Assembly (NCBI GenBank): GCA_907163375.1
Contig: CAJQUW010006858.1
Location: forward strand, 1 to 64,000
Direction: 5' to 3'
Length of the DNA: 64,000 nt
Source: Prostheceraeus crozeri
Lineage: Eukaryota; Platyhelminthes; Polycladida; Euryleptidae
Shown here: positions 21,641-40,220 of the stretch, one piece after another
How positions within the stretch are numbered: position 1 is the stretch's first letter
Layout of the letters: the number at the start of each line of letters is the position of its first letter
Program-made: the position numbers and the translations under genes
The notes under the pieces: generated by a model
The model's database searches: none
What the model saw: only the letters and a program-made list of their open reading frames with translations
What the model was told of the DNA's origin: nothing

Positions 21641-21672
21641 GATCATCATCCAATGAGAATCAAGCATTTCTG

Positions 21673-21680
21673 TATAAATA
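21673..21680 (+). promoter_or_regulatory. TATA box, left-arm rightward promoter
   Basis: TATAAATA stands 106 bp upstream of the leader ATG at 21779 and about 30 bp upstream of a TCATTC sequence that could serve as an initiator. It is the only strong TATA motif in front of the long rightward gene cluster, so it may drive a polycistronic or alternatively spliced transcript. The mirrored copy is at 41095-41102. Confidence 0.6.
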
Positions 21681-21778
21681 GCGAGCCTTCCACAGTGAGA
21701 ATCATTCCATCGTTGAATCATACGAGTGACGGACGCACATTTTCTCTCTCTAGTTCCCTGTTCTATTATCCAACTAAA

Positions 21779-22553: not shown

Positions 22554-22587
22554 CCCTTTCCTAACTCTACCCTATGACAATTCGCTT

Positions 22588-22713
22588 ATGTGCTTTGAGT
22601 GTCGTAGACGTGGTCTTATTAGATACATTTTACTTCTTCGTTGCCATCATATCATTTGTGTATTTTGTCGTGAAAAGCATCGATGTAATTCTTCATTTTG
22701 CAATATGTTATAG
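22588..22713 (+). CDS. Small RING-like zinc-binding microprotein
   Basis: The 41-residue product from ATG 22588 has the spacing CFEC, then RCHHIICVFC, then CNSSFC. This is a Cys/His pattern of the RING or zinc-ribbon type with eight metal ligands in a very short chain. An alternative frame from 22574 (about 51 codons) would give a hydrophobic membrane-like peptide over the same bases. The zinc-ligand pattern makes the first reading more likely. Upstream in-frame codons overlap the tail of the SSB-like gene. The function is unknown, and the identical copy lies at 40061-40186. Confidence 0.5.
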   Translation: MCFECRRRGLIRYILLLRCHHIICVFCREKHRCNSSFCNML

Positions 22714-22746
22714 AACGCTTCCTTAGATGTGTAATTTCCGTTTTAG

Positions 22747-23295
22747 GCTTCTATCATCATTTTTATGGATTGTGAGGGTGAACCTGTACAGGAGCTCAGT
22801 GCTATTGCTATGAACAATTGGACATATCAGATTGTTAGTGTCTATCATCAACATGCCAACTGCGATCCCAATGTTGATCAATGGGCGAGAAAACACATTC
22901 ATGGACTTAATCTGAAATATTTGCAAGACTATGGCTTTTCTTGTGAGAGTGCTCTTCTTATTGACTTTAAACGATGGTTAGCTGCTTTCAATGTTATACG
23001 CATCTTTTGTAATAATCCTGGTAAGGAGAGGAAAGTATTTCCCAATCTAATCATTGATGATATTTTGCTCCCGCCTTGGGATAGTAGAGTGAATCAACAT
23101 TATCATGAAGTCACGAAACGTTTTAAGGATTTGTGTGTTCCTATTTTGTCTGTTCGTTGTAGTAGCTACGTTCATAACCAATGCTTCTTTCCTCCTTACC
23201 TCAACACTGCCAAAGTCCTGTATGGTTATCATTGCTCGCTGTATGATAGTTATCAGCTGTATCTATTTTATCTCTTTCAAACCATTGATTTATAA
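22747..23295 (+). CDS. DEDD-exonuclease-like Polinton protein, probably spliced 5' end
   Basis: The frame carries IIFMDCEGEPVQEL, which looks like the first beta strand and D-x-E motif of DEDD-type 3'-5' exonucleases. HIHGLN follows, and near the C-terminus YHCSLYDSY resembles the third motif. Only ATG 22765 is available in the open frame, and starting there would remove the beta strand. A TAG stands immediately before GCT at 22747, preceded by CCGTTTTAG, a 3' splice site. Joining the leader ATG (21779-21781) to 22747 gives an in-frame extended start. Later acidic positions are not all evident, so catalysis is unproven. It belongs to a widespread family of Polinton proteins of unknown role, possibly DNA processing. 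Confidence 0.6.
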   Translation, partial: ASIIIFMDCEGEPVQELSAIAMNNWTYQIVSVYHQHANCDPNVDQWARKHIHGLNLKYLQDYGFSCESALLIDFKRWLAAFNVIRIFCNNPGKERKVFPNLIIDDILLPPWDSRVNQHYHEVTKRFKDLCVPILSVRCSSYVHNQCFFPPYLNTAKVLYGYHCSLYDSYQLYLFYLFQTIDL

Positions 23296-23382
23296 TGCAT
23301 GCTTGTTACCGTTATTCAATAAATGTTACTATGAGAAGAGTTGTTGTTTTCATGCAATGGATGGGTTAGTTAAAGGGCGATC

Positions 23383-23793
23383 ATGTCTTTCTCAAACGAC
23401 TGCGGAACATTACGTTTTCATAGGCAAAGTTTAAAAGGAGCTGTTCAAGATTATGTGATAAATTTTCATAAAGATGAGACCGACATCGAAGCAGTGGTCG
23501 ATGATGCTAGCACTCTATTTCTAGAGTTAATGAATACATTCTCTGATAGCATTATCATGGCGCGATTAGTTGCGAAAATTAAGTTTAGTCATTTTGGAAA
23601 GGAAGAGGTGGAAAGTCGCTCTTTCCATTTTGCTTCTTATTCAATGGAAGTGGTAGATCACCCCGAAGAATTTTTTAAAAGACATATGATAAAAATTGCT
23701 GAACGTCTTAACGCATTTAACCATCATGGTAGCAGTCTAGTGATTGAAGCGATTTCAGATATTCACATTCAACTTTCCATAAAGAAAAATTGA
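23383..23793 (+). CDS. Conserved Polinton protein of unknown function (136 aa)
   Basis: Intact in both arms. The protein is mixed alpha/beta with no membrane segment. The pattern of a central acidic helix region, a KIKFSHFG strand, an FFKRHMIKIAERLNAF helix and a C-terminal SSLVIEAISDIHIQL strand recalls a small protein common upstream of PolB or zinc-finger genes in Polintons. The start ATG follows a CGATC context, and its stop overlaps the region preceding the next gene by a few bases. No catalytic motif is visible. The role is unknown; a DNA-replication or virion role is guesswork. Confidence 0.6.
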   Translation: MSFSNDCGTLRFHRQSLKGAVQDYVINFHKDETDIEAVVDDASTLFLELMNTFSDSIIMARLVAKIKFSHFGKEEVESRSFHFASYSMEVVDHPEEFFKRHMIKIAERLNAFNHHGSSLVIEAISDIHIQLSIKKN

Positions 23794-23795
23794 AA

Positions 23796-24119
23796 ATGCA
23801 GTGGTACTTGATTGTAGCACAACTGGTTTTCGAGCTATGTCTGCTCACTCTCGAAGTATATTCCTTCTGTACATGCGTCTATTATTTAGAAAAGGCTAGC
23901 AAATTCATATCTTCAAAAAGACTTGCTATAGACATCAGTAACGGTGAAACTATGTGTTGCGATGTATGTAAGCGAAAGGATGGAAATGAAAAGCGCATCT
24001 TCAAGAGATGTAAGCATGCTTTTTGTCAACGCTGTTTCATACGTAATTGCATTCAACTTTGCCAATGTAACCACTGTGACATTGCTCATTTCGAGTGTCA
24101 CTTATGTCGCAATAGTTAG
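23796..24119 (+). CDS. Membrane-anchored RING-like zinc protein (107 aa)
   Basis: The N-terminal 25 residues (YLIVAQLVFELCLLTLEVYS) form a likely membrane segment. A compact zinc module follows: CCDVC, then FKRCKHAFCQRCFI, then CIQLCQCNHC and HFECHLC, with the C-x-H-x2-C-x2-C core of RING fingers. A membrane RING protein could act as an E3 ubiquitin ligase. That is inferred only from the ligand pattern. The start at ATG 23796 follows directly on the previous stop. Left copy intact, right copy frameshifted. Confidence 0.65.
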   Translation: MQWYLIVAQLVFELCLLTLEVYSFCTCVYYLEKASKFISSKRLAIDISNGETMCCDVCKRKDGNEKRIFKRCKHAFCQRCFIRNCIQLCQCNHCDIAHFECHLCRNS

Positions 24120-24170
24120 TACCTATGCAAATGTGGTAAAGATAGGTTTTAGCAAAGACTAACACGGAAA

Positions 24171-24527
24171 ATGGCGAAACGTAAAATGACGAAACGTAAA
24201 AGTCAAAAGTTTTCTTCAGCCATTCAAGCTCTCCGACGAATGAAAGCAAATCAGCGATACAATGCTATACGACATGCTAACGATAAATTCATTTGTGAAA
24301 TTATTTCTCATGTGAGGAAGTTGAGGACGAAGAAATTAGCGCCAAAACAACGAAAGTTACTTAAGCGATATGCTACGAAATTGCGTTTCATCTCCAATCC
24401 TAAAGTCGCCCTTCAAAGAAAGAGGAAAACTCTAACACAAAAGGGCGGTTTCCTTTCAGCAATACTTCCAATGATAGCTCCTGCCGTGGGCAACCTATTG
24501 GGAAATATCTTTGGCTCTAAGCGTTAA
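24171..24527 (+). CDS. Small basic core/virion protein with glycine-hydrophobic tail (118 aa)
   Basis: The N-terminal two-thirds is very rich in Lys and Arg. After QKGG the C-terminus turns hydrophobic (FLSAILPMIAPAVGNLLGNI), an arrangement typical of small adenovirus-core-like or membrane-active peptides in adintoviruses. A homologue with the same QRGG-hydrophobic tail precedes the other genes in the second element (51805-52200). A possible 3' splice site GGTTTTAG ends at 24152, 18 nt upstream and in frame with the ATG. The likely role is DNA condensation or membrane disruption in the particle. Confidence 0.6.
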   Translation: MAKRKMTKRKSQKFSSAIQALRRMKANQRYNAIRHANDKFICEIISHVRKLRTKKLAPKQRKLLKRYATKLRFISNPKVALQRKRKTLTQKGGFLSAILPMIAPAVGNLLGNIFGSKR

Positions 24528-24558
24528 TTATGCAAATGTTGAGTCTCAAAGTAATAAA

Positions 24559-25176
24559 ATGGATTTCAGACTTCAATGTGATAAAGTTCTGACTGTATCA
24601 GGTCCATCTCATGCAGGTAAAACTGTTTTCACGCTGAATTTATTGGATAAAAGAAGGGAGTTGTTTAAGGAACCTATCAATCGAGTGATTTGGTGTTATG
24701 GTATTTATCAACCGTCGCTGTTTCAGGAATTGCAAAGTCGCAACTTTATTCGACATGAAGGAATTATTCCAGTGGATAAACTTCAGTCTAATGATGTTGT
24801 TGTATTGGATGATTTATTAAAAGAAAGTAAGAATTCAAAAGATGTTACAGATATGTTCACTCGCGCAGCACACCATAAAAGGTGTTTTATCATCTATATT
24901 ACACAAAATTTGTTTCCTGATGGAAAAGAAGCTCGTACACGAAACCTGAATACACACTATTATGCTATTTTCAAGAATCCGCGAGATAAAAGTCAATTTG
25001 AAATTTTAGCGCGACAAGTTGCACCCAGAGGATCAAAAGCCTTAATTGAAATTTTTCAAGCAGCTACTGAAAAACCGCACGGTTACCTATTCATTGACTT
25101 TACGCAAGAGTGTCCGGAAGAATTTAGATTTCGAAGTGATATTTTGAAAACTCCCATGATTATCTACAAACTATGA
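24559..25176 (+). CDS. Genome-packaging ATPase (FtsK/HerA type)
   Basis: The 205-residue protein carries a Walker A loop GPSHAGKT close to its N-terminus and a Walker B strand VVVLDDLL about 60 residues later. IIYITQNLF follows as the sensor-like strand, then the conserved KPHGYLFIDFTQECPE. This is the standard layout of Polinton and adintovirus packaging ATPases, which drive genome DNA into preformed capsids. I chose ATG 24559; the frame is open upstream but has no ATG. The stop overlaps the ATG of the next gene (ATGAG). Intact and nearly identical in both arms, and homologous to 53206-53841. Confidence 0.9.
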   Translation: MDFRLQCDKVLTVSGPSHAGKTVFTLNLLDKRRELFKEPINRVIWCYGIYQPSLFQELQSRNFIRHEGIIPVDKLQSNDVVVLDDLLKESKNSKDVTDMFTRAAHHKRCFIIYITQNLFPDGKEARTRNLNTHYYAIFKNPRDKSQFEILARQVAPRGSKALIEIFQAATEKPHGYLFIDFTQECPEEFRFRSDILKTPMIIYKL

Positions 25177-25865
25177 GTTCTTATTCTCGCATGATTGTTA
25201 TTCCTCAGGATGAATATGTACAATTGACTGCCATGCAGCAAGTAAAGCAACCTCTTGCAAATCAAATGTATAGGAAAGAAATAGACTATCAGCAAAATGT
25301 TCACATCAAAGATCCACATCGTGCTGTATTATTACAATCGGAAACTGTTGAGCAATTGAAAAACTTGAAGAATAAGATGCGTGACTCTGTATCGACTGCT
25401 ACACCTTTAGCATCTCGCGCACATGCCATATCTCTTTTCAACAGTATTGAACCCCATCTCAATGTAAATGATAGAGGAGAAATCATTACAGATGAAAATA
25501 AAGTGATTGATGCTTCACGTTATGAAGACTTGATTCAGTATGCGACACGTAGAAAGCGCCGTCAGGGCTATGTTCCACCTGGTTGGTCATACTTTCTTAA
25601 ACTATTGAAAAAGCATAATGTGCCAAAATTTGCTTTAAATAATGAGACATTGAAAGAACTTGATTCAACAGTGGCTACTACTCCAATGCTTCAGGCGATG
25701 AAAATGCCAACAAATTGGTTTAAGACGTCACCTGCTACATCCCCTCCCACACTCACTAAGCAAACAAGAGGAAGAACTCGACGTAGATCTACATCGCCAC
25801 TAAAACTGGTAAAAGGAAAACGTAAAACAGCTCCTCCTAGGAAATACATGTTCTCAGACTATTAA
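25173..25865 (+). CDS. Conserved unknown protein downstream of the ATPase (230 aa)
   Basis: It begins with IVIPQDEYVQL, has a central charged helical region and a conserved IEPHLNVNDRGEIITDENK segment. A GWSYFLKLLKKHNVP-like helix follows, with a basic Ser/Thr/Pro-rich C-terminus. A broken homologue sits at the same place in the second element (53881-54525), so linkage to the ATPase is conserved. It starts within the ATPase stop by a 4-bp overlap. One substitution (RGEII versus RGKII) separates the arms. No enzymatic motif is seen; a virion or packaging partner role would fit position. Confidence 0.65.
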   Translation: MSSYSRMIVIPQDEYVQLTAMQQVKQPLANQMYRKEIDYQQNVHIKDPHRAVLLQSETVEQLKNLKNKMRDSVSTATPLASRAHAISLFNSIEPHLNVNDRGEIITDENKVIDASRYEDLIQYATRRKRRQGYVPPGWSYFLKLLKKHNVPKFALNNETLKELDSTVATTPMLQAMKMPTNWFKTSPATSPPTLTKQTRGRTRRRSTSPLKLVKGKRKTAPPRKYMFSDY

Positions 25866-25866
25866 T

Positions 25867-26082
25867 ATGAAGCAGATGTGTTGCTTGCCATGTAATGAGC
25901 CGCCAGAGGTGAATGTCGTTGTCACTTGCACTTGCTGCGCCAGCTCTCATAATGAAACCCCTAAGCAATGTGAACACGATCGCAAAACCGCTAAAGCTAA
26001 ATGCTGCAGTTGTTGTAAATGTAGAAAGGCAAGAAAACAAAAAGATGAGAAGGAGGAAAAAGAGTCAGCCGTCATCGACTGA
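25867..26082 (+). CDS. Cys-rich microprotein overlapping the integrase start (71 aa)
   Basis: It starts one base after the preceding stop. The product has about 13 cysteines in pairs (CCLPC, CTCC, CCSCCKC) and a highly charged Lys/Glu C-terminus. The last 38 bases overlap the integrase frame starting at 26045. The density of cysteines suggests zinc binding or disulfides. The position of the ATG, the length and its conservation in the other arm argue for a gene. The arms are too similar for conservation to count as selection, so it remains a candidate. Confidence 0.45.
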   Translation: MKQMCCLPCNEPPEVNVVVTCTCCASSHNETPKQCEHDRKTAKAKCCSCCKCRKARKQKDEKEEKESAVID

Positions 26083-27131
26083 ACGTTTGAAGTCAATCTA
26101 TTATGATGTAAAACATCCGGCAGGATTTGCATCTATCAAGAAATTATCAAAAGCGAGTGGTCTTCCACAATCACAAGTGAAACGATGGTTAAAGGGTCAG
26201 GCTACCTATACACTCCACAAACAAGCGAAAAAGAAGTACCGCACCCGCCATTATATTGTTCATGACATCGATGAACAGTGGCAAGCAGATTTGTGTGATG
26301 TTGCCTCCATTTCAAAACATAACTCGGGCAATAATTTTATTTTAACCGTCATTGATATTTTCTCGCGTTATGCGTGGGCTCAACCTTTAAAAACTAAAGA
26401 AGGGAAAGGAGTAGCAAAAGCATTCCAAACAATTTTTCGAGAAGGTCGCATTCCAAAAAGAATTCAGAGTGATCAAGGAAAAGAGTTTGAAAATCAGCAT
26501 GTGACAAGATTATTTGAGAGGCATGACATTGAGTTGTTTAGTGTAAAGAGCGCTTATAAAGCTGCACTCGTTGAACGTTTTAATCGCACATTAAAAAATC
26601 GCTTGTGGCGACATTTTACTGCCAACTTGACACAAAATTGGACAAAGGTTCTACAAGATACACTCCATGCCTACAATCACTCTATCCATCGTTCTATTGG
26701 ACTCAGACCAGTAGATGTAAATGCTGACAATGTAGATAAAGTGCGCGAATCATTCCAACGTAAACGCACTCATGTGAAAAGTGATGTGAAAATTGGCGAT
26801 AAAGTTCGTATCTCAAAAGTGAAAAGTGTTTTTGCTAAAGGGTACCTCCCGAATTGGACAGAGGAGGTATTTACAGTATCAAGGATTAATCAAAGACTCT
26901 CCGACCACCTACAAGTTGAAAGATTACGATAATGAAGAAATTGAGGGTAGCTTTTACCGCGATGAGATTGAGGTAGTCACTGAAAGTGAAACATATTTGG
27001 TAGAGAAAATCATTCGATGTAAAAAACGGCAAGGTGAAGAATGGTGTCTTGTTAAATGGACTGGTTATCCTTCAAGTATGAACTCTTGGATGCGTCGTGC
27101 CGACATCTTTCATCTAAGTGATCGACAGTGA
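26045..27131 (+). pseudogene. Polinton integrase (rve core + chromodomain), left arm, 2-bp frameshift
   Basis: The retroviral-type integrase has its catalytic acids in WQADLCD, IQSDQGKEF and ALVERFNRTLK. A C-terminal chromodomain follows (YLVEKIIRCKKRQGEEW, LVKWTGYP, MNSWM). I chose ATG 26045 (MRRRKKSQ); the frame is open upstream through the Cys-rich overlap. A run of A at 26892-26894 is two bases shorter than in the right arm and splits the frame just before the chromodomain. The right-arm copy is intact. Integrase would cut the AGT termini and join them to host DNA with a 6-bp stagger. Confidence 0.9.
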
Positions 27132-27172
27132 TTCATGCAAAGTTGTAACTAACAATGTTTAGGGTTTGAGCT

Positions 27173-27628
27173 ATGAATCCAACTGCCTCATTTTATTCAC
27201 GACCCTCCTACGTAAGTGGCGGAGGACAAATTTACATCGGTGCTCGCCGCCAACGTGGAGGTAGCATACTTGGTGCACTGAAATCTGTTGTAGCACCTCT
27301 CATATCCAATGTCGGTAGATCTTTAAAACGAAATGTTTTAAGTAATGCCGTTGGCTTTGCTGGTGATGTTGCTAGTGATCTTTCCAGAGGTAGAAGTTTT
27401 AAGAGCAGTTTGTTGAATCGTGGGAAGGAACGCGGTTTAAAAACATTGAAGCAGACCATTGCTGGTGTTACTCAAGGAAAGAAATCACCTAAACGAATGA
27501 ATAAAGGAAGGAGGAAACATCGCGGAGCTGGTAAGGTGCGATCTTCAGTCAAAAGGCATTCACGCAAACGTCGTAGAGGCTCTAATCATTCATCAGGCGC
27601 TAAACGACGACGCTGCTATAACTTCTAA
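27173..27628 (+). CDS. Adenovirus pX/pVI-like basic virion protein (151 aa)
   Basis: An N-terminal Tyr/Gly-rich stretch leads to RRQRGGSILGALKSVVAPLI, an amphipathic helix preceded by a double glycine. A DVASDLSRGRSFKSSLLNRG segment shared by adintovirus and adomavirus core-like proteins follows. The last 40 residues are almost all Lys, Arg, Gly and Ser. It probably binds DNA in the virion or disrupts membranes after protease cleavage; GG sites are typical of adenain-class targets. Intact in both arms, just upstream of the capsid gene with a 2-bp gap. Confidence 0.75.
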   Translation: MNPTASFYSRPSYVSGGGQIYIGARRQRGGSILGALKSVVAPLISNVGRSLKRNVLSNAVGFAGDVASDLSRGRSFKSSLLNRGKERGLKTLKQTIAGVTQGKKSPKRMNKGRRKHRGAGKVRSSVKRHSRKRRRGSNHSSGAKRRRCYNF

Positions 27629-27630
27629 TC

Positions 27631-28908
27631 ATGGAGTGTAAAACTTCCGGTTTTTGTTTGTTTGATCAACAAGCCATACAGACAGATATTCTTAGTTCAA
27701 GTATTGTAGATTATCATCCTCGAACAGCTGAGAATGCTGGCCCCATTGAATTTGTTATTCCTGGTGGTAGTGATGACTACATAGATTTGAGTTATGCGAT
27801 GCTTGATTTGAGGTTTAGAATTCAGCAAGCAGATGGAACTGCTATTGACGATGCACATAAAGTTGGACTGAACAATTTACCATTGACTACATTACTTCGC
27901 GATGTTTCTCTAACGATTGGAGAGCAGCAGGTGGAAGGTGGTCAAAGCGATTATCCCTATAAATCATATTTCAATCATGTATCACAGTTTCATCCAGCAG
28001 CACAAAAAAGTCATATGGAAGCCATGGGATGGTACAGAGATGAAGCAGGAAACTTTGATGTTGAAACAAACAGTGGCTTTGTAAAGCGATCTGCTATGAT
28101 TAAAGATAGTAGAGTATGTCAGCTATATGGTCCGCTGAATTTAGACTTCTTTAGACAGTCAAAGTTTTTACTCTGTAATACCAGCATGCGACTCAAGCTG
28201 ACATTGAATAAGCCTGAATTTGCGCTGAATGCATTTGCTAAAGTTGACAATTTTAGAATTCATGTGGAAGATATTGCACTTTACATTCGTCGAGTAGTAC
28301 CGAATCCAAGTGTCATTAGAGGGCATGCTGAAGGCCTTAACCGCCAAAATGCCATTTACCCCGTTCAGCATACAAAGCTTCTCACCTTTACAATTCCGAA
28401 AGATCAAAAGAGTTTCATGAAAGATGGCCTCTTTCCATCGGAAGCACCGAAGCTCCTCATGGTGGCAATGGTTGAAAATGATGCATTTAATGGTAATATA
28501 AAGAAGAATCCTTTCAATTTTAAACACAATCAGTTAAGTGAAATTGCTTTACGTGTAAATGGTGTGAGTCATCCTGGTCCACCCTACAAACCAGATTTTG
28601 CTTCGGATCAATTTATGCGCAGTTATGTTGATTTTATGGATGTTTTTGGCTTTTACAATACGGATGACACCAACGGACTGACTATGAAAGAGTTTAAGAG
28701 TGGATATACTATTTATGCATTTGATTTGACTGCTGACAGCGATATTAGTGCACCCTATCGTCAAGCGAACGTGCCTCATAATATTCGTTTGGATTTGACG
28801 TTCAAAAGAACACTACCTGAGACGATCAATGTATTAATTTATGCAGTCTTCGATTCAAATATTGAAATTACAAAGTATCGTGACGTGATTCTTCAGTATA
28901 ATCGTTAA
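27631..28908 (+). CDS. Major capsid protein, double-jelly-roll hexon type (425 aa)
   Basis: Length and context match adintovirus and Polinton hexons. The N-terminal strand block contains FVIPGGSDDYIDLSYAM, a hallmark of the first jelly roll. GWYRDEAG and RQSKFLLCNTSMRLKLTLN follow, then the transition region NAIYPVQHTKLLTFTIPK and the second jelly roll, with KKNPFNFKHNQL and FGFYNTDDTNGLTM. There are no interruptions. The stop shares one base with the protease ATG (TAATG). Trimers of this protein would build an icosahedral shell. One amino acid differs between the arms (GNFDV here, GKFDV there). Confidence 0.9.
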   Translation: MECKTSGFCLFDQQAIQTDILSSSIVDYHPRTAENAGPIEFVIPGGSDDYIDLSYAMLDLRFRIQQADGTAIDDAHKVGLNNLPLTTLLRDVSLTIGEQQVEGGQSDYPYKSYFNHVSQFHPAAQKSHMEAMGWYRDEAGNFDVETNSGFVKRSAMIKDSRVCQLYGPLNLDFFRQSKFLLCNTSMRLKLTLNKPEFALNAFAKVDNFRIHVEDIALYIRRVVPNPSVIRGHAEGLNRQNAIYPVQHTKLLTFTIPKDQKSFMKDGLFPSEAPKLLMVAMVENDAFNGNIKKNPFNFKHNQLSEIALRVNGVSHPGPPYKPDFASDQFMRSYVDFMDVFGFYNTDDTNGLTMKEFKSGYTIYAFDLTADSDISAPYRQANVPHNIRLDLTFKRTLPETINVLIYAVFDSNIEITKYRDVILQYNR

Positions 28909-29369
28909 TGAGTTGGTTGACTGCTGACGATATTAAGACTAAAGTGCAGCGTAATGCAGACGAAGCGACGTTGAAAGCTTTCGATAATGTCTATTCACTC
29001 GATACCTTACCACCTGCAGTAAATCACTATCCCATCTTTATTGTGCTAAACACTCATTCACAGAATTTAGGCGGTGAGCATTGGAAAGCGATCTTTATTG
29101 GAGAAGACCGACGTGGTGAACTATTTGACTCTCTTGCTCAACCTCCAAATATACCAACACAGCAGTGGTTGAGAAAACATACGCGTCAATATCAGCGAAA
29201 TGAACGCATACTACAACATCCACTTTCATCAACGTGTGGTGCTTTTGTACTGTACTTCATCTTAAGACGTTTACATGTATCTCGATTTGCATCTGTTATT
29301 CAAAACTTTTCATGTAATCCATCCTCTAATGAAAAAATGATTTGTAAGTTCTATCATGATTTGAAATAA
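28908..29369 (+). CDS. Adenain-like cysteine protease (153 aa)
   Basis: The catalytic His lies in GGEHWKAIFI and the acidic partner in ELFDSLAQPP. The nucleophile Cys lies in the classic HPLSSTCGAFVLYF context. The length is short for the family, but all three motifs are present and evenly spaced. It overlaps the capsid gene by one base and would mature capsid and core proteins. A polyadenylation signal AATAAA at 29365-29370 overlaps its stop. On the right arm one substitution creates a stop two codons earlier. Confidence 0.88.
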   Translation: MSWLTADDIKTKVQRNADEATLKAFDNVYSLDTLPPAVNHYPIFIVLNTHSQNLGGEHWKAIFIGEDRRGELFDSLAQPPNIPTQQWLRKHTRQYQRNERILQHPLSSTCGAFVLYFILRRLHVSRFASVIQNFSCNPSSNEKMICKFYHDLK

Positions 29370-29400
29370 AAACATCATGTTGGAAAAATTGTTTTTTATT
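29365..29400. terminator. Convergent polyadenylation signals
   Basis: AATAAA on the plus strand (29365-29370) serves the rightward capsid-protease cluster. TTTATT at 29395-29400 is AATAAA on the minus strand and overlaps the stop of the TBP-like gene. The two transcription units therefore end tail to tail within 36 bp. Confidence 0.65.
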
Positions 29401-29941
29401 TTACACTCCGCTGGGTACGTACATACTCAATGAGATAGTCTAGGATCATATTTGCTTGTACATGAGATTTTAGTCCAGTAATGATCACTTTACTATTATG
29501 AAAGATTGCCACATGCACAGGTAACCAACAACTAATGAGAGCTGCAGGAAAAAGTTCGGGTTCATAACACAAACTGTAACTGCTGGTACGAATCTTCAAA
29601 AATGATAGACTGTCACTCAATTGAGTAGAGATCACCATATTGTCCACAGTCAGATTCGACATCACACACCTCTCCCTCTTCCATATCCGACGTAGTAGTC
29701 TTTGTAGCTCTAAGCGCATTGACTGCGCCGATGAATGAGAAAGGGCGCCGAGAATCTGTACAGTCCCATTTGGGAAGAGTTGAAGATTCCGTGAATTGTT
29801 CATCTTCACCACTAACATTTGAGGACGGCCCGGGTAATACTTGCTGTTTGGAAGCTGTTGGTGTAATGTTGTGAGATCGATTTTGGTGTAGAGTCTGAAG
29901 CGACGGAGAATGTTGACGATGGTGTAGCGATGGCGCTTCAT
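29396..29941 (-). CDS. TATA-binding protein (TBP) homologue, 181 aa, left arm
   Basis: The product is one TBP core long and shows both direct repeats. Repeat 1 (residues ~7-86) has IDLTTLHQQLPNSKYYP and LQLFPNGTVQILGALSHSSA. Repeat 2 (~97-176) has LTVDNMVIST, CYEPELFPAALIS and VAIFHNSKVIITGLKSH. YEPELFP (126-132) is the most conserved TBP signature. Three of the four DNA-intercalating Phe positions are kept (F56, F131, F147); the fourth is Pro40. ATG 29941 gives exactly the core length; the longer frame upstream is unlikely. A TATAAAAG lies 43 bp ahead of the start. The likely role is to recruit transcription machinery to the element's own TATA promoters. Intact and identical in the mirrored copy. 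Confidence 0.85.
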   Translation of the reverse strand: MKRHRYTIVNILRRFRLYTKIDLTTLHQQLPNSKYYPGRPQMLVVKMNNSRNLQLFPNGTVQILGALSHSSAQSMRLELQRLLRRIWKRERCVMSNLTVDNMVISTQLSDSLSFLKIRTSSYSLCYEPELFPAALISCWLPVHVAIFHNSKVIITGLKSHVQANMILDYLIEYVRTQRSVK

Positions 29942-30263
29942 GATGAAAGAATGAGTAAATTGAGCGATGTACCTTCCTTTTATACTTTTCCCAACTACCT
30001 TGATGAAATGTGAAGTTAGTATGAAGTTGGGAATGATAGAGTTGAATTCGCCGATTGTTGACGCGCAGCCAGATGCGATTTCCAATACGTGAATGTCTTT
30101 TCATATAGAAGTATTTCAAGTCCTTCATGATATGATGTAGAGATTGAAAATGACGATAAGATAAAGCAAACTCTCTTCTCACATTTCCAGTTGAATCTTT
30201 GAAATAGACGTTTCGATCATGATCCGTTTCAATACGTTGTAGGGAATCTAATTTCCAACTCAT
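29613..30263 (-). CDS. PC4-like protein A with long overlap into the TBP gene (216 aa)
   Basis: The first ~110 residues have two similar modules. One is VYFKDSTGNVRREFALSYRH with FQSLHHIMKDL. The other is NRIWLRVNNRRIQLYH with FTFHQGSWEKYKRKVHRSI. Each fits the strands-plus-helix signature of the PC4/p15 transcription coactivator, L-x4-(W/F)-x2-(L/Y) followed by a conserved Asp or Ser. The assignment is tentative. The remaining ~105 codons overlap the TBP gene in another frame and encode a His/Ser/Gln-rich then acidic tail without stops. Whether that extension is translated is open. It lies upstream of TBP on the same strand, and a second paralogue precedes it. Confidence 0.5.
   Translation of the reverse strand: MSWKLDSLQRIETDHDRNVYFKDSTGNVRREFALSYRHFQSLHHIMKDLKYFYMKRHSRIGNRIWLRVNNRRIQLYHSQLHTNFTFHQGSWEKYKRKVHRSIYSFFHHEAPSLHHRQHSPSLQTLHQNRSHNITPTASKQQVLPGPSSNVSGEDEQFTESSTLPKWDCTDSRRPFSFIGAVNALRATKTTTSDMEEGEVCDVESDCGQYGDLYSIE
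29977..29984 (-). promoter_or_regulatory. TATA box ahead of the TBP-like gene
   Basis: On the minus strand TATAAAAG sits 43 bp upstream of the TBP ATG, at a distance that would place the start site 10-15 nt before it. The same bases encode Tyr-Lys-Arg of the upstream gene, so chance is possible. The mirrored copy is at 32787-32794. Confidence 0.45.
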
Positions 30264-30285
30264 GATGTGTGGTAGTCATGTCTGA

Positions 30286-30572
30286 TTAAGATTTGCATAG
30301 TAGGGCGATGAACTCACGACGAATAAATGTCATGATGGAGCGATGTATATATCTTCTATACTTCTCCCAATTGTATTTGCGAAATGAGAAACAGTTTGCG
30401 GAATGAGAATGGTAGATTTGAATTTCATTTCTGTAATGTTGAAGCCAAACTTGATCACCCAAGGAGATGAATCTTAATGTTTCAAAATATTCCAAATCCC
30501 TCATGATATCATTGAGGTTGACAAATTGTCGCCATGTTAATGTAATTTCTCTTGATGTATGACCATGAGAAT
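30286..30572 (-). pseudogene. PC4-like protein B, truncated at the palindrome axis
   Basis: The conserved frame runs from the loop (FKNSHGHTSREITLTWRQF) through LNDIMRDLEYFETLRF, LGDQVWLQHYRNEIQIYH and FSFRKYNWEKYRRYIHRSI to a stop at 30286. It matches PC4-like protein A position by position, so the two are tandem paralogues. The first ~20 codons are missing: beyond 30572 the DNA turns into the mirror image of this same gene. The axis of the palindrome therefore lies inside this gene, and neither arm has a complete copy. Confidence 0.7.
30488..30572. other. Palindrome loop (85 bp unique spacer)
   Basis: This is the only unique sequence of the inverted duplication. It is flanked by TTTCAAAA at 30480-30487 and TTTTGAAA at 30573-30580, the innermost paired bases. 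It is entirely coding sequence of PC4-like protein B on the minus strand. Confidence 0.85.
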
Positions 30573-30713
30573 TTTTGAAACATTAAGATTCATCTCCTTG
30601 GGTGATCAAGTTTGGCTTCAACATTACAGAAATGAAATTCAAATCTACCATTCTCATTCCGCAAACTGTTTCTCATTTCGCAAATACAATTGGGAGAAGT
30701 ATAGAAGATATAT
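30573..30713 (+). pseudogene. PC4-like protein B, right-arm copy, part 1 (before mariner)
   Basis: Inverse copy of the left-arm gene beginning at FETLRF and running to EKYRRYI, where the mariner is inserted. The gene continues at 32426-32485 after the mariner. It lacks its 5' part because of the palindrome junction. Confidence 0.75.
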
Positions 30714-30714
30714 A

Positions 30715-32423
30715 CGTGGTGTGATCCAAAATGTCCCGGACTAACCTACTTGCAGATAACCTGTGATAACGAATACTACTTCAGATGTAAATTTAGGTCT
30801 TTAAGGCATGAGAAATATGGTCGCCGAAATTTTTCCGGTCAGTTTTCTATTTTTAAAAAATATTTTTACATTTTAACATGAATTTCTGTATTTTCTGAAT
30901 TGATCGAGATCCGATTTGTCTTATTGTTATAGTTAGATTGATTTTGATTTGTACCTTATTTGACGGATATCTTTGCCATGAATATTGCACGTCTTTTGTT
31001 AATTGCTTCATGTGTTACGATATCAATCAGTGAAGTTCATTCAGCACGCATTCATTAAGAAATTCGTGTCAACGATGGTTCTTTGTTCTATCAGTTTTCA
31101 TGATGGATGTGACAAGCGTGTCTTCAGTCGAATATCGCAGTGTGATACGATACCTCCTGATCCGCGGCTTCGCTAATGGTGACATTCTAAAGGAATTAAG
31201 CCTGGCATATGGAAGCAAAGCTCCATCGAGAACTACTGCTTATTTCTGGATAAGCGAATTTAAACGCGGAAGACAATCTGTGGAGCAAGATTTTTCAACT
31301 GTTGGTCGGCCGCAGGAGATTCCGGAAGAGAAATCGAGTCAGTGCGATGAAGTGATTACAGCACACAGAAGGATAACCATCCGTGAGTTGTCAAGAGAGT
31401 TGCGAATCAGTTATCACTCCTGTTATGACATCATCGAAAGACTTGGATATCGCAAACTGGCATCACGTTTCGTACCGAAGTTTCTGTCACCTGAAATGAA
31501 GGAGAACAGACTTCTGGCGGCACAGTCAAATTTGGATCTCCTCGAAATGCACGGAGATCAGTTTCTGAACTGCATCCTTACAGAGGATGAAACACCTTTA
31601 AGTTTGTATCTGCCTCAAAGTAAGCGAGAATCTGCAGAGTGGCGAAAATCAGGCGAGTCTGCCCCTTTGAAAATGCGATCCGGAACAACATATCGCCGGT
31701 CGTTGATGCTGACGGTCTTTTGGAACGCTTCGGGAATCCAACTGGTTGACTTTGCGGATAAAGGAGTAAGAATCAATAGCGAATATTATTCCAATCTGTT
31801 ATCTGAAGCGAGGAAGAAAATGAGAAAGCCACGAAACATTCCCCTCTACTTGCTTCATGACAATGCTCCGATTCACACCTCGCAGGAGACAACCAATGCC
31901 TTAACGAGAAACGGATTTCAACTATTGAGCCATCCTCCTTATTCACCTGACTTGGCCCCAAGTGACTTCTATCTGTTTAGATTCCTCAAAAAGCATCTTC
32001 GTGGACACCATTTTGAATCGCCAGTTGAACTGCGGGATGCAGTTACTGAGTTTTTTGATTCTTTGACACCGGAATTTTTTCATAAAGCTTTTTGTGAATT
32101 GAGACTTCGTTGGCAAAAAGTGACGAATGCTAACGGCTCATACATTGAAAAGTAAACTGTTTTCTGGAACAAAACATTTGTTTTTCCGTTAATTATTAGT
32201 CAGGTTATTAGTGATAGCTTAACTGTCAAGTTAATCTAAATATATTAATTCTAAATCGCTAGAATTTATAGGAAAATCTTGAAATTCAGACAAAAATGTT
32301 TGAAAAATGTTGAGAAACCATATTTCTCATGCCTTAAAGACCTAAATTTACATCTGAAGTAGTATTCGTTATCACAGGTTATCTGCAAGTAGGTTAGTCC
32401 GGGACATTTTGGATCACACCACG
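30715..32423. mobile_element. Intact mariner-type transposon in the right arm
   Basis: The 1709-bp element has perfect 107-bp terminal inverted repeats (30715-30821 and 32317-32423), starting CGTGGTGTGATCCAAAATGT. TA flanks both ends (30713-30714; 32424-32425). It sits in the right copy of PC4-like gene B only. Removing it with one TA restores the mirror image exactly. TIRs of this length are long for mariners. Their perfect identity points to a recent insertion, later than formation of the palindrome. Confidence 0.95.
31100..32155 (+). CDS. Mariner transposase, DD34D, intact (351 aa)
   Basis: N-terminal HTH region (residues ~10-110) with IRYLLIRGFANGDI and TIRELSRELRISYHSCYDII. The catalytic acids lie in CILTEDETPL, YLLHDNAPIHTS and PYSPDLAPSDFYLF. 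Exactly 34 residues separate the second and third Asp, the mariner signature. The full-length frame has no stops and perfect TIRs on either side, so it may be active. The start is ATG 31100 (a second ATG follows directly). Confidence 0.95.
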   Translation: MMDVTSVSSVEYRSVIRYLLIRGFANGDILKELSLAYGSKAPSRTTAYFWISEFKRGRQSVEQDFSTVGRPQEIPEEKSSQCDEVITAHRRITIRELSRELRISYHSCYDIIERLGYRKLASRFVPKFLSPEMKENRLLAAQSNLDLLEMHGDQFLNCILTEDETPLSLYLPQSKRESAEWRKSGESAPLKMRSGTTYRRSLMLTVFWNASGIQLVDFADKGVRINSEYYSNLLSEARKKMRKPRNIPLYLLHDNAPIHTSQETTNALTRNGFQLLSHPPYSPDLAPSDFYLFRFLKKHLRGHHFESPVELRDAVTEFFDSLTPEFFHKAFCELRLRWQKVTNANGSYIEK

Positions 32424-32425
32424 TA

Positions 32426-32485
32426 CATCGCTCCATCATGACATTTATTCGTCGTGAGTTCATCGCCCTACTATGCAAATCTTAA
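32426..32485 (+). pseudogene. PC4-like protein B, right-arm copy, part 2 (after mariner)
   Basis: Continues the gene cut by the mariner and ends at the TAA at 32483-32485, mirroring the left copy at 30286. Confidence 0.7.
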
Positions 32486-32507
32486 TCAGACATGACTACC
32501 ACACATC

Positions 32508-33158
32508 ATGAGTTGGAAATTAGATTCCCTACAACGTATTGAAACGGATCATGATCGAAACGTCTATTTCAAAGATTCAACTGGAAATGTGAGAAGAGAG
32601 TTTGCTTTATCTTATCGTCATTTTCAATCTCTACATCATATCATGAAGGACTTGAAATACTTCTATATGAAAAGACATTCACGTATTGGAAATCGCATCT
32701 GGCTGCGCGTCAACAATCGGCGAATTCAACTCTATCATTCCCAACTTCATACTAACTTCACATTTCATCAAGGTAGTTGGGAAAAGTATAAAAGGAAGGT
32801 ACATCGCTCAATTTACTCATTCTTTCATCATGAAGCGCCATCGCTACACCATCGTCAACATTCTCCGTCGCTTCAGACTCTACACCAAAATCGATCTCAC
32901 AACATTACACCAACAGCTTCCAAACAGCAAGTATTACCCGGGCCGTCCTCAAATGTTAGTGGTGAAGATGAACAATTCACGGAATCTTCAACTCTTCCCA
33001 AATGGGACTGTACAGATTCTCGGCGCCCTTTCTCATTCATCGGCGCAGTCAATGCGCTTAGAGCTACAAAGACTACTACGTCGGATATGGAAGAGGGAGA
33101 GGTGTGTGATGTCGAATCTGACTGTGGACAATATGGTGATCTCTACTCAATTGAGTGA
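32508..33158 (+). CDS. PC4-like protein A, right-arm copy
   Basis: Mirror copy of 29613-30263 with the identical protein. As in the left arm, the last ~105 codons overlap the TBP-like gene in a different frame. It starts at ATG 32508, just inside the end of paralogue B. Confidence 0.5.
   Translation: MSWKLDSLQRIETDHDRNVYFKDSTGNVRREFALSYRHFQSLHHIMKDLKYFYMKRHSRIGNRIWLRVNNRRIQLYHSQLHTNFTFHQGSWEKYKRKVHRSIYSFFHHEAPSLHHRQHSPSLQTLHQNRSHNITPTASKQQVLPGPSSNVSGEDEQFTESSTLPKWDCTDSRRPFSFIGAVNALRATKTTTSDMEEGEVCDVESDCGQYGDLYSIE
32787..32794 (+). promoter_or_regulatory. TATA box ahead of the TBP-like gene, right arm
   Basis: TATAAAAG, 43 bp upstream of the ATG at 32830 and inside the coding sequence of PC4-like protein A. 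Confidence 0.45.
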
Positions 33159-33375
33159 CAGTCTATCATTTTTGAAGATTCGTACCAGCAGTTACAGTTT
33201 GTGTTATGAACCCGAACTTTTTCCTGCAGCTCTCATTAGTTGTTGGTTACCTGTGCATGTGGCAATCTTTCATAATAGTAAAGTGATCATTACTGGACTA
33301 AAATCTCATGTACAAGCAAATATGATCCTAGACTATCTCATTGAGTATGTACGTACCCAGCGGAGTGTAAAATAA
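32830..33375 (+). CDS. TBP homologue, right-arm copy (181 aa)
   Basis: Mirror copy of 29396-29941 with the same amino-acid sequence, including the YEPELFP signature. Both copies are intact, so the element holds two identical TBP-like genes transcribed away from the axis. Confidence 0.85.
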   Translation: MKRHRYTIVNILRRFRLYTKIDLTTLHQQLPNSKYYPGRPQMLVVKMNNSRNLQLFPNGTVQILGALSHSSAQSMRLELQRLLRRIWKRERCVMSNLTVDNMVISTQLSDSLSFLKIRTSSYSLCYEPELFPAALISCWLPVHVAIFHNSKVIITGLKSHVQANMILDYLIEYVRTQRSVK

Positions 33376-33407
33376 AAAACAATTTTTCCAACATGATGTT
33401 TTTATTT

Positions 33408-33863
33408 CTAATCATGATAGAACTTACAAATCATTTTTTCATTAGAGGATGGATTACATGAAAAGTTTTGAATAACAGATGCAAATCGAGATACATGTAA
33501 ACGTCTTAAGATGAAGTACAGTACAAAAGCACCACACGTTGATGAAAGTGGATGTTGTAGTATGCGTTCATTTCGCTGATATTGACGCGTATGTTTTCTC
33601 AACCACTGCTGTGTTGGTATATTTGGAGGTTGAGCAAGAGAGTCAAATAGTTCACCACGTCGGTCTTCTCCAATAAAGATCGCTTTCCAATGCTCACCGC
33701 CTAAATTCTGTGAATGAGTGTTTAGCACAATAAAGATGGGATAGTGATTTACTGCAGGTGGTAAGGTATCGAGTGAATAGACATTATCGAAAGCTTTCAA
33801 CGTCGCTTCGTCTGCATTACGCTGCACTTTAGTCTTAATATCGTCAGCAGTCAACCAACTCAT
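33408..33863 (-). CDS. Adenain-like protease, right-arm copy (151 aa)
   Basis: Mirror copy of 28908-29369 with the same catalytic His, Asp and Cys motifs. A single T-to-A change makes the stop two codons earlier; this lies after the catalytic domain and is likely harmless. Confidence 0.88.
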   Translation of the reverse strand: MSWLTADDIKTKVQRNADEATLKAFDNVYSLDTLPPAVNHYPIFIVLNTHSQNLGGEHWKAIFIGEDRRGELFDSLAQPPNIPTQQWLRKHTRQYQRNERILQHPLSSTCGAFVLYFILRRLHVSRFASVIQNFSCNPSSNEKMICKFYHD

Positions 33864-35140
33864 TAACGATTATACTGAAGAATCACGTCACGATACTTTG
33901 TAATTTCAATATTTGAATCGAAGACTGCATAAATTAATACATTGATCGTCTCAGGTAGTGTTCTTTTGAACGTCAAATCCAAACGAATATTATGAGGCAC
34001 GTTCGCTTGACGATAGGGTGCACTAATATCGCTGTCAGCAGTCAAATCAAATGCATAAATAGTATATCCACTCTTAAACTCTTTCATAGTCAGTCCGTTG
34101 GTGTCATCCGTATTGTAAAAGCCAAAAACATCCATAAAATCAACATAACTGCGCATAAATTGATCCGAAGCAAAATCTGGTTTGTAGGGTGGACCAGGAT
34201 GACTCACACCATTTACACGTAAAGCAATTTCACTTAACTGATTGTGTTTAAAATTGAAAGGATTCTTCTTTATATTACCATTAAATGCATCATTTTCAAC
34301 CATTGCCACCATGAGGAGCTTCGGTGCTTCCGATGGAAAGAGGCCATCTTTCATGAAACTCTTTTGATCTTTCGGAATTGTAAAGGTGAGAAGCTTTGTA
34401 TGCTGAACGGGGTAAATGGCATTTTGGCGGTTAAGGCCTTCAGCATGCCCTCTAATGACACTTGGATTCGGTACTACTCGACGAATGTAAAGTGCAATAT
34501 CTTCCACATGAATTCTAAAATTGTCAACTTTAGCAAATGCATTCAGCGCAAATTCAGGCTTATTCAATGTCAGCTTGAGTCGCATGCTGGTATTACAGAG
34601 TAAAAACTTTGACTGTCTAAAGAAGTCTAAATTCAGCGGACCATATAGCTGACATACTCTACTATCTTTAATCATAGCAGATCGCTTTACAAAGCCACTG
34701 TTTGTTTCAACATCAAATTTTCCTGCTTCATCTCTGTACCATCCCATGGCTTCCATATGACTTTTTTGTGCTGCTGGATGAAACTGTGATACATGATTGA
34801 AATATGATTTATAGGGATAATCGCTTTGACCACCTTCCACCTGCTGCTCTCCAATCGTTAGAGAAACATCGCGAAGTAATGTAGTCAATGGTAAATTGTT
34901 CAGTCCAACTTTATGTGCATCGTCAATAGCAGTTCCATCTGCTTGCTGAATTCTAAACCTCAAATCAAGCATCGCATAACTCAAATCTATGTAGTCATCA
35001 CTACCACCAGGAATAACAAATTCAATGGGGCCAGCATTCTCAGCTGTTCGAGGATGATAATCTACAATACTTGAACTAAGAATATCTGTCTGTATGGCTT
35101 GTTGATCAAACAAACAAAAACCGGAAGTTTTACACTCCAT
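33863..35140 (-). CDS. Major capsid protein, right-arm copy (425 aa)
   Basis: Mirror copy of 27631-28908, intact. It differs at one residue (GKFDV in place of GNFDV). It overlaps the protease start by one base, as in the left arm. Confidence 0.9.
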   Translation of the reverse strand: MECKTSGFCLFDQQAIQTDILSSSIVDYHPRTAENAGPIEFVIPGGSDDYIDLSYAMLDLRFRIQQADGTAIDDAHKVGLNNLPLTTLLRDVSLTIGEQQVEGGQSDYPYKSYFNHVSQFHPAAQKSHMEAMGWYRDEAGKFDVETNSGFVKRSAMIKDSRVCQLYGPLNLDFFRQSKFLLCNTSMRLKLTLNKPEFALNAFAKVDNFRIHVEDIALYIRRVVPNPSVIRGHAEGLNRQNAIYPVQHTKLLTFTIPKDQKSFMKDGLFPSEAPKLLMVAMVENDAFNGNIKKNPFNFKHNQLSEIALRVNGVSHPGPPYKPDFASDQFMRSYVDFMDVFGFYNTDDTNGLTMKEFKSGYTIYAFDLTADSDISAPYRQANVPHNIRLDLTFKRTLPETINVLIYAVFDSNIEITKYRDVILQYNR

Positions 35141-35142
35141 GA

Positions 35143-35598
35143 TTAGAAGTTATAGCAGCGTCGTCGTTTAGCGCCTGATGAATGATTAGAGCCTCTACGA
35201 CGTTTGCGTGAATGCCTTTTGACTGAAGATCGCACCTTACCAGCTCCGCGATGTTTCCTCCTTCCTTTATTCATTCGTTTAGGTGATTTCTTTCCTTGAG
35301 TAACACCAGCAATGGTCTGCTTCAATGTTTTTAAACCGCGTTCCTTCCCACGATTCAACAAACTGCTCTTAAAACTTCTACCTCTGGAAAGATCACTAGC
35401 AACATCACCAGCAAAGCCAACGGCATTACTTAAAACATTTCGTTTTAAAGATCTACCGACATTGGATATGAGAGGTGCTACAACAGATTTCAGTGCACCA
35501 AGTATGCTACCTCCACGTTGGCGGCGAGCACCGATGTAAATTTGTCCTCCGCCACTTACGTAGGAGGGTCGTGAATAAAATGAGGCAGTTGGATTCAT
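35143..35598 (-). CDS. pX/pVI-like basic virion protein, right-arm copy
   Basis: Mirror copy of 27173-27628 with an identical product: double-glycine amphipathic helix followed by a basic tail. Confidence 0.75.
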   Translation of the reverse strand: MNPTASFYSRPSYVSGGGQIYIGARRQRGGSILGALKSVVAPLISNVGRSLKRNVLSNAVGFAGDVASDLSRGRSFKSSLLNRGKERGLKTLKQTIAGVTQGKKSPKRMNKGRRKHRGAGKVRSSVKRHSRKRRRGSNHSSGAKRRRCYNF

Positions 35599-35639
35599 AG
35601 CTCAAACCCTAAACATTGTTAGTTACAACTTTGCATGAA

Positions 35640-36728
35640 TCACTGTCGATCACTTAGATGAAAGATGTCGGCACGACGCATCCAAGAGTTCATACTTGAA
35701 GGATAACCAGTCCATTTAACAAGACACCATTCTTCACCTTGCCGTTTTTTACATCGAATGATTTTCTCTACCAAATATGTTTCACTTTCAGTGACTACCT
35801 CAATCTCATCGCGGTAAAAGCTACCCTCAATTTCTTCATTATCGTAATCTTTCAACTTGTAGGTGGTCGGAGAGTCTTTTTGATTAATCCTTGATACTGT
35901 AAATACCTCCTCTGTCCAATTCGGGAGGTACCCTTTAGCAAAAACACTTTTCACTTTTGAGATACGAACTTTATCGCCAATTTTCACATCACTTTTCACA
36001 TGAGTGCGTTTACGTTGGAATGATTCGCGCACTTTATCTACATTGTCAGCATTTACATCTACTGGTCTGAGTCCAATAGAACGATGGATAGAGTGATTGT
36101 AGGCATGGAGTGTATCTTGTAGAACCTTTGTCCAATTTTGTGTCAAGTTGGCAGTAAAATGTCGCCACAAGCGATTTTTTAATGTGCGATTAAAACGTTC
36201 AACGAGTGCAGCTTTATAAGCGCTCTTTACACTAAACAACTCAATGTCATGCCTCTCAAATAATCTTGTCACATGCTGATTTTCAAACTCTTTTCCTTGA
36301 TCACTCTGAATTCTTTTTGGAATGCGACCTTCTCGAAAAATTGTTTGGAATGCTTTTGCTACTCCTTTCCCTTCTTTAGTTTTTAAAGGTTGAGCCCACG
36401 CATAACGCGAGAAAATATCAATGACGGTTAAAATAAAATTATTGCCCGAGTTATGTTTTGAAATGGAGGCAACATCACACAAATCTGCTTGCCACTGTTC
36501 ATCGATGTCATGAACAATATAATGGCGGGTGCGGTACTTCTTTTTCGCTTGTTTGTGGAGTGTATAGGTAGCCTGACCCTTTAACCATCGTTTCACTTGT
36601 GATTGTGGAAGACCACTCGCTTTTGATAATTTCTTGATAGATGCAAATCCTGCCGGATGTTTTACATCATAATAGATTGACTTCAAACGTTCAGTCGATG
36701 ACGGCTGACTCTTTTTCCTCCTTCTCAT
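35640..36728 (-). CDS. Polinton integrase with chromodomain, right-arm copy, intact
   Basis: Here the frame is uninterrupted from the basic N-terminus through the D, D, E core to the chromodomain, about 362 residues from ATG 36728. The five-A run that the left arm has as three A is intact. This copy alone could supply a full integrase for the element, whose ends and 6-bp duplication show that such an enzyme acted. Confidence 0.92.
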   Translation of the reverse strand: MRRRKKSQPSSTERLKSIYYDVKHPAGFASIKKLSKASGLPQSQVKRWLKGQATYTLHKQAKKKYRTRHYIVHDIDEQWQADLCDVASISKHNSGNNFILTVIDIFSRYAWAQPLKTKEGKGVAKAFQTIFREGRIPKRIQSDQGKEFENQHVTRLFERHDIELFSVKSAYKAALVERFNRTLKNRLWRHFTANLTQNWTKVLQDTLHAYNHSIHRSIGLRPVDVNADNVDKVRESFQRKRTHVKSDVKIGDKVRISKVKSVFAKGYLPNWTEEVFTVSRINQKDSPTTYKLKDYDNEEIEGSFYRDEIEVVTESETYLVEKIIRCKKRQGEEWCLVKWTGYPSSMNSWMRRADIFHLSDRQ

Positions 36729-36906
36729 CTTTTTGTTTTCTTGCCTTTCTACATTTACAACAACTGCAGCATTTAGCTTTAGCGGTTTTGCGATCGTGTT
36801 CACATTGCTTAGGGGTTTCATTATGAGAGCTGGCGCAGCAAGTGCAAGTGACAACGACATTCACCTCTGGCGGCTCATTACATGGCAAGCAACACATCTG
36901 CTTCAT
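36691..36906 (-). CDS. Cys-rich microprotein, right-arm copy
   Basis: Mirror copy of 25867-26082, same product, again overlapping the integrase start. Confidence 0.45.
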   Translation of the reverse strand: MKQMCCLPCNEPPEVNVVVTCTCCASSHNETPKQCEHDRKTAKAKCCSCCKCRKARKQKDEKEEKESAVID

Positions 36907-36907
36907 A

Positions 36908-38214: not shown

Positions 38215-38245
38215 TTTATTACTTTGAGACTCAACATTTGCATAA

Positions 38246-38602: not shown

Positions 38603-38653
38603 TTTCCGTGTTAGTCTTTGCTAAAACCTATCTTTACCACATTTGCATAGGTA

Positions 38654-38978: not shown

Positions 38979-38980
38979 TT

Positions 38981-39391: not shown

Positions 39392-39478
39392 GATCGCCCT
39401 TTAACTAACCCATCCATTGCATGAAAACAACAACTCTTCTCATAGTAACATTTATTGAATAACGGTAACAAGCATGCA

Positions 39479-40027: not shown

Positions 40028-40060
40028 CTAAAACGGAAATTACACATCTAAGGAAGCGTT

Positions 40061-40186: not shown

Positions 40187-40220
40187 AAGCGAATTGTCAT
40201 AGGGTAGAGTTAGGAAAGGG

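Follow-up and report, generated by a model that had tools for sequence, protein, structure and literature searches.

A 64,000-nucleotide stretch of the genome of the polyclad flatworm Prostheceraeus crozeri (GenBank assembly GCA_907163375.1, contig CAJQUW010006858.1, positions 1 to 64,000; hereafter the window) contains a palindromic insertion of the Polinton/adintovirus type, and both of its gene arms encode a 181-residue protein that is, with near certainty, a homologue of the TATA-binding protein (TBP) with a predicted saddle fold. A TBP captured by this element and re-specialised there probably, if by a slight balance, directs host RNA polymerase II (Pol II) to the element's own promoters. 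The identity of the protein, the pattern of residues conserved among its relatives, its overlap with a second gene and the layout of two promoter-like pairs per arm all bear on this proposal (coordinates in Table 1).

An earlier note on this DNA had placed a complete TBP core at 29396..29941. The open reading frame (ORF) is real but runs on the minus strand, frame 1 of the plus strand holding many stops; as complement(29396..29941), the frame stays open upstream of its ATG as far as a TTG at 30085. The protein itself is much as that note described. Its frame has the two-repeat architecture of TBP; repeat 2 holds YEPELFP, and the ILG/ITG turns are followed by GALSH and GLKSH. It retains three of the four intercalating phenylalanines (116, 190 and 207), the fourth (99, in the NPKRF position) being proline. 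Residue numbers and roles here and below are in what we take to be yeast TBP numbering. Loss of such a phenylalanine also occurs in some divergent cellular TBPs, and the full set of four was not taken as defining. The profile score lies far above background: Pfam PF00352 matches the 181-residue protein at E=1.3e-19, with 70.2 bits against a gathering cut-off of 22.9. In addition, phmmer matched TBPs in the PDB at E=5.8e-12, a profile of the family reached PDB TBPs at E=1.4e-25, and all ten NCBIfam matches of the protein are TBP models, every one under the curated cut-off. The predicted structure is the TBP saddle, and the first 44 rows of a Foldseek search of the PDB with this model are all TBP chains; identity to the TBP rows in structural comparisons is about 19-27%. 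The stirrup EPELFP, which in TBP contacts TFIIB, is present in the window protein.

The gene is intact and identical in both arms, as the earlier note had it, with zero differences within it in the arm alignment. It could be supposed that a host TBP or TRF gene merely adjoins viral sequence, given that TBP is a cellular gene. However, the gene lies inside an insertion bounded by a target-site duplication (TSD), is present in both palindrome arms, with the candidate protease to one side of it and the palindrome centre to the other, and shows no intron in the window, so that a host gene is an extremely improbable reading.

Relatives of the protein allow its conservation to be followed. Searching with the single sequence gave 24 relatives and searching with a profile gave 123 proteins, of which 120 are listed; none of these 120 is named, and Pfam TBP matched all 25 rows of one family alignment (A1; E up to 1). 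Contact residues were surveyed in 61 relatives (P0001-P0061), the remaining 59 listed rows lying outside the survey. Across these 61, repeat 1 is a conserved remodelling and repeat 2 keeps most DNA contacts together with the TFIIB stirrup. In repeat 2, E186, E188, F190, P191 and F207 are kept in all 61 relatives, N159, V161 and T215 in 60 and L189 in 53. In repeat 1, F116 is kept in 61/61 and N69 in all 48 non-gap rows, and other contacts are replaced in a consistent manner: the first intercalating phenylalanine, F99, is proline in 55/55 non-gap rows; V71 is His, Met or Leu in 52/52 non-gap rows; V122 is Gln and T124 is Leu, Met or Ile throughout (61/61 each); and L114 is Gln in 50 relatives and Leu in 9. 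The stretch aligned with NPKRF ends in RP in 55/55 rows, reading xGRP in 50 and RGRP in 34. The AT-hook motif has RGRP at its core, which is a lead only.

This combination bears on the main rival explanation, in which the protein is a decoy or inhibitor that has kept the TFIIB stirrup and lost normal DNA recognition, and that sequesters TFIIB or caps TATA boxes, thereby damping host transcription. The invariance of E186, E188, F190 and P191 (61/61) agrees with such a role, as does the replacement of repeat-1 DNA contacts and of L205 in repeat 2. A pure decoy, however, would have no need of N159, V161, F190, P191, F207 and T215 (60-61/61) or of F116 (61/61), and TATA-initiator pairs are present in the element itself. 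We hold a decoy to be rather unlikely.

The window protein shares Leu in EPELFP and Arg in the NPKR equivalent with a microsporidian TBP row, whereas both archaeal rows in the comparison have EPEQFP/DPDQFP in each repeat, which argues for an origin from a eukaryotic-type TBP. The only canonical TBP in our tree is a single row, a microsporidian TBP segment, and it sits on a branch of more than 6 changes per column, too long for the donor to be placed. This very long branch, and the fact that some other genes of the element differ in frame between the arms, would fit a captured host TBP decaying without function. Against decay stand the intact gene in both arms, specific residues at or near 100% in 61 relatives and an overlapping frame that is full length in 5 relatives, and we consider it very improbable. 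As to where relatives reside, scans of viral contigs with three TBP alignments (A1, A3 and A4), the capsid candidate and the ATPase gave no confirmed locus; a scan of genome contigs gave a single match, 26% identical, at the end of a contig (L001) from a bacterial metagenome-assembled genome; and a phage collection held no match to P0010, the one relative tried.

The repeat-1 half of the TBP gene is dual-coding. Residues 111-216 of a 216-residue ORF overlap TBP repeat 1 in a different frame, and the 108 open codons of this overlap were matched by none of 20,000 synonymous simulations. The overlap also bears on short family members: 49 of the 120 listed relatives have fewer than 100 residues and contain repeat 2, and one of the relatives, P0072, is 98% identical and has 88 residues. 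The gene caller limits overlap between genes, and a start at the window's Met matching that of P0072 leaves an overlap of 50 nt with the 216-residue ORF. Gene overlap explains the short relatives more simply than an intron or a frameshift.

The predicted fold of the N-terminal domain of the 216-residue protein looks Whirly/PUR/MRP-like, and its structural comparison included 13 rows of this kind at 7-12% identity. Pfam and PDB sequence searches with the protein gave no relevant match, so the fold lacks sequence-profile support; an assignment to PC4 by sequence was dropped on the same grounds, a related fold being suggested by the predicted structure only. Folds of this group are common in single-stranded nucleic-acid handling. 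The 216-residue protein differs from Whirly, PUR-alpha and MRP in its extra tail, which is encoded within the TBP gene. Such a neighbour, together with the overlap of the two genes and their position adjoining the palindrome centre, could point instead to a DNA-bending or replication/packaging factor, with the saddle acting on the termini or the palindrome centre alongside the Whirly-like partner. This is unlikely in our judgement: contact with TFIIB, and not replication, accounts for the conservation of the EPELFP stirrup, and the element has no PolB-sized ORF. A short paralogue of the N-terminal domain (39% identity) occurs at 30286..30504 (-) and 30559..30744 (+), the pair being inverted at the palindrome centre (arms 30345..30487 and 30573..30715). 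Furthermore, a 99%-identical copy of the 216-residue protein (P0121), labelled hypothetical protein, is found on a 10,296-base JGI contig.

Each arm contains two TATA-initiator pairs. The whole 64 kb was scanned for TATAAAW followed, 29-33 nt further on, by the A of TCAKTY, and the four matches fall two per arm, with none in the 40,390 bp of flank; a version with relaxed TATA added one match, at 5813. The chance expectation is 0.047 per arm, and at least two matches arose in 1 of 1,000 Markov shuffles. One pair sits within the 216-residue ORF, with the TBP ATG 43 nt downstream of its first T. The other stands ahead of the long gene block, 106 nt upstream of the start codon of ORF1, and this codon is directly followed by a predicted intron; removal of this intron joins the coding sequence in frame. 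A TATA box ahead of every gene was considered and rejected, because among 16 gene starts (some surely false) only that of TBP matches within 200 nt upstream; the ORF1 pair was found on reading its upstream region past 200 nt. I-K-x8-H, a trace in the protein sequence that would fit the TBP promoter, occurs in 5 of the 14 relatives that reach at least 22 residues upstream of N69, and in 5 of 6 long-enough rows of the window's and the neighbouring clade. Since it is absent in 9/14, the promoter trace can apply to no more than that part of the family to which the window protein belongs.

These pairs also concern a further rival, in which the protein recruits RNA polymerase III (Pol III) or an alternative polymerase through TFIIIB (Brf), as human Brf2-TBP does. 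The surfaces of TBP for TFIIB and Brf overlap, and the top Foldseek rank is a TBP from a Brf2 complex, although the leading E-values are close together. The predicted spliced leader of ORF1 and its TATA-initiator pair are Pol II features, however, which leaves Pol III recruitment quite improbable.

Computation supplied the family membership, the fold, the dual coding and the layout of the promoters, and the following mechanism is proposed on these. A Polinton/adintovirus-type element would have captured a eukaryotic-type TBP gene and then re-specialised the protein. Repeat 2 of the viral TBP would bind the TATA half-site, and repeat 1 would read a different 3' half-site or grip the 3' half through the xGRP stirrup. 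The viral TBP would recruit host TFIIB and Pol II and would favour the TATA-initiator promoters of the element, that of TBP included, which would amount to positive autoregulation. The overlapping Whirly-like protein may serve as a single-stranded-DNA-binding partner with an acidic tail, and PC4/Whirly co-activators are a model for such a partner. The earlier note had suggested that the protein would let the element control its own promoters, and this suggestion gains support from the two pairs in each arm. A more elaborate version, which we offer only tentatively and hold to be well short of probable, is a private initiation module used by a whole family of virus-like mobile elements. In it, the DNA-binding half formed by TBP repeat 1 would be rebuilt round an AT-hook-like xGRP stirrup; the TBP gene would also encode, in a different frame, the acidic tail of a Whirly/PC4-like co-activator; and the TATA-initiator promoter of TBP would lie inside the coding region of that partner. 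Together these would make a switch that reinforces itself and passes transcription from host control to that of the element.

Several points weigh against this proposal. DNA binding, TFIIB recruitment and regulation are steps that we infer. With an intercalating phenylalanine and other repeat-1 contacts gone, the protein may no longer bind TATA, and repeat 2 is itself incompletely kept, L205 being Thr/Ala in 61/61 relatives and V213 being Val in only 9/61 and mostly Ile or Met. The motif of the window protein is PGRP, not RGRP. On the promoter side, the search pattern was chosen after the first sites had been seen; overall TATA density is not raised, the arm having 0.91 per kb, the same as the left flank (0.91), against 3.92 for the right flank; the I-K-x8-H trace is found in 0/8 long-enough rows of a large other clade of 36 rows; and the pairs resemble ordinary host-type core promoters, which host TBP may serve, the viral TBP then having some other role.

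Table 1. Coordinates of the insertion and of the genes and promoter-like pairs in it (window positions)
Feature	Coordinates	Strand	Remarks
TBP homologue, left arm	29396..29941	-	181 residues from ATG; Pfam TBP, AF2 (AlphaFold2) fold, Foldseek/VIA-align
TBP homologue, right arm	32830..33375	+	protein identical to left copy; arm comparison
216-residue ORF, left	29613..30263	-	N-terminal Whirly/PUR/MRP-like predicted fold; low-confidence tail (residues 111-216)
216-residue ORF, right	32508..33158	+	same ORF
TATA-initiator pair by TBP, left	29949..29984	-	TATAAAAG and TCATTC, 32 nt from first T to A
TATA-initiator pair by TBP, right	32787..32822	+	same pair
TATA-initiator pair before long gene block, left	21673..21707	+	TATAAATAG and TCATTC, 31 nt from first T to A
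TATA-initiator pair before long gene block, right	41068..41102	-	same pair
Predicted GT..AG intron	40926..40993	-	68 nt, directly after ORF1 start codon; left copy 21782..21849 (+)
Palindromic insertion	20898..42291		21.4 kb; 6-bp direct repeat TTCTCC at 20892..20897 and 42292..42297
Integrase, rve core and chromodomain	35640..36860	-	406 residues; Pfam rve 1.3e-10, Chromo 6.4e-07
Integrase, left copy	25913..27131		broken by frameshift
Candidate A32-like packaging ATPase	37597..38262	-	AAA_14 0.0077, Pox_A32 0.028, weak and sub-cut-off; left copy 24511..25176
Candidate major capsid protein	33863..35140	-	425 residues; tentatively assigned, from gene order; left copy 27631..28908
Candidate adenain-like cysteine protease	33408..33863	-	left copy 28908..29369 (+)
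Candidate adenovirus pX-like core protein	38246..38602	-	Adeno_PX 0.0024, sub-cut-off; left copy 24171..24527
Mariner-type element	30715..32423	+	near palindrome centre; TA duplication; transposase 31100..32155, Pfam Transposase_1 4.7e-13

The carrier is a PolB-lacking element of the Polinton/adintovirus type and is not classed as a complete Polinton. Its virus-like character, claimed in the earlier note, is borne out by an integrated element with an rve-chromodomain integrase, terminal inverted repeats (TIRs) that start AGTAGTAAGC, and a 6-bp TSD, TTCTCC, just outside them; its capsid gene is a candidate only. The element is an inverted dimer of two 9.4-kb gene arms that are 99.85% identical, with 14 differences in 9,390 aligned columns, 5 of these being gaps. 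When the flanks are joined at the insertion site they form a single open frame (20240..20897 and 42292..42500, minus strand), and the palindrome therefore inserted as a unit. An assembly artefact was rejected because the outer flanks differ, share the 6-bp duplication and give this open frame when joined. The interrupted frame looks transposase-like (DDE) by eye, and Pfam gave no match for its left part. The inverted-dimer layout is reminiscent of the palindromic defective genomes of protein-primed viruses.

The longest ORF of the element has 425 codons, and no PolB match was found among 28 ORFs scanned, of which 10 either span the left end of the element or lie beyond it. An intact PolB exceeds 1000 residues, so with no element ORF longer than 425 residues an intact PolB is absent. 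Neither Pfam nor NCBIfam matched the 425-residue capsid candidate, and what PHROG gave for it was a weak row without relation (0.0047); the left copy of the protease gave weak, sub-cut-off matches to Peptidase_C48 (E=0.001) and Peptidase_C5 (E=0.048). Frame differences between the arms leave the left ORF1 (21940..22464) shorter, the left integrase split and a Cys/His-rich ORF shorter in the right arm (38802..38984); this last ORF, at 23790..24119 (+) in the left arm, has the look of a RING finger by eye, with no Pfam RING match. An 85-nt loop (30488..30572) would have joined the arms before the mariner inserted. Tandem 326-bp sub-repeats (2.0 and 2.3 copies, at 20964..21623 and 41152..41891) lie inside the outer ends of the element. 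Beyond it, a satellite-like array with a 185-bp unit occupies 1..2103 (11.2 copies), and the flanks at 15399..17650, 50346..50966, 56970..59165 and 62214..63179 hold DDE_1 and DDE_Tnp_4 transposases, a RING-finger ORF, a reverse transcriptase with an adjoining endonuclease ORF, and a Tc1-type transposase.

Compared with known systems, the window protein is like cellular TBP (PF00352) in its two repeats, saddle fold, EPELFP stirrup and three of four intercalating phenylalanines; it differs in having xGRP for NPKRF, in the replacement of V122, T124 and mostly of L114, in being carried by a mobile element and in being dual-coding. TBP-like proteins of Nucleocytoviricota (among them those of Heterosigma akashiwo virus and Terrestrivirus and the B263R homologue of abalone asfa-like virus) share a virus-encoded TBP fold and were matched in BFVD, where the best row, a 189-residue protein, has a TM score by target of 0.65 and 20% identity. 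The genomes of Nucleocytoviricota exceed the element in size by far, and an RNA polymerase is encoded by many of them. Polintons/Mavericks and adintoviruses have in common with the element the rve-chromodomain integrase, TIRs, a 6-bp TSD and candidate protease, ATPase and capsid genes; the window element differs in the lack of a PolB-sized ORF, in its palindromic gene arms and in its TBP and Whirly-like genes. Elements of this type presumably depend on the Pol II and the general factors of the host.

In the available text of the respective sources, TBP is on record for Nucleocytoviricota (PMC4602308), mirusviruses (PMC10132985, PMC12768974), mirusvirus-like integrated elements (PMC10675990) and nimaviruses, as wsv303 of white spot syndrome virus (PMC10871703). 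Mirusviruses and nimaviruses are likewise DNA viruses with a TBP, the former predicted to multiply in the nucleus and the latter able to be integrated, but their genomes are large, and the same text draws no link to Polinton-type elements. Among the papers listed by full-text searches, none was found to describe a TBP or a Whirly-like gene in a Polinton or adintovirus, though an earlier description may exist; the text of PMC11071296 has neither 'TATA' nor 'TBP', and that of PMC11071308 has no 'TATA'.

A captured TBP with a conserved, re-specialised repeat 1 would equip an element of ~20 kb, a carrier much smaller than the TBP-bearing viruses just cited, with a core-promoter factor. That it shares coding sequence with a second gene, whose product possibly binds nucleic acids, is already unusual, and the more than 100 unnamed relatives allow comparative tests. 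If the proposal is true, this family would offer a small natural system for studying the half-by-half evolution of TBP specificity and the way in which an integrated virus separates its own transcription from that of its host.
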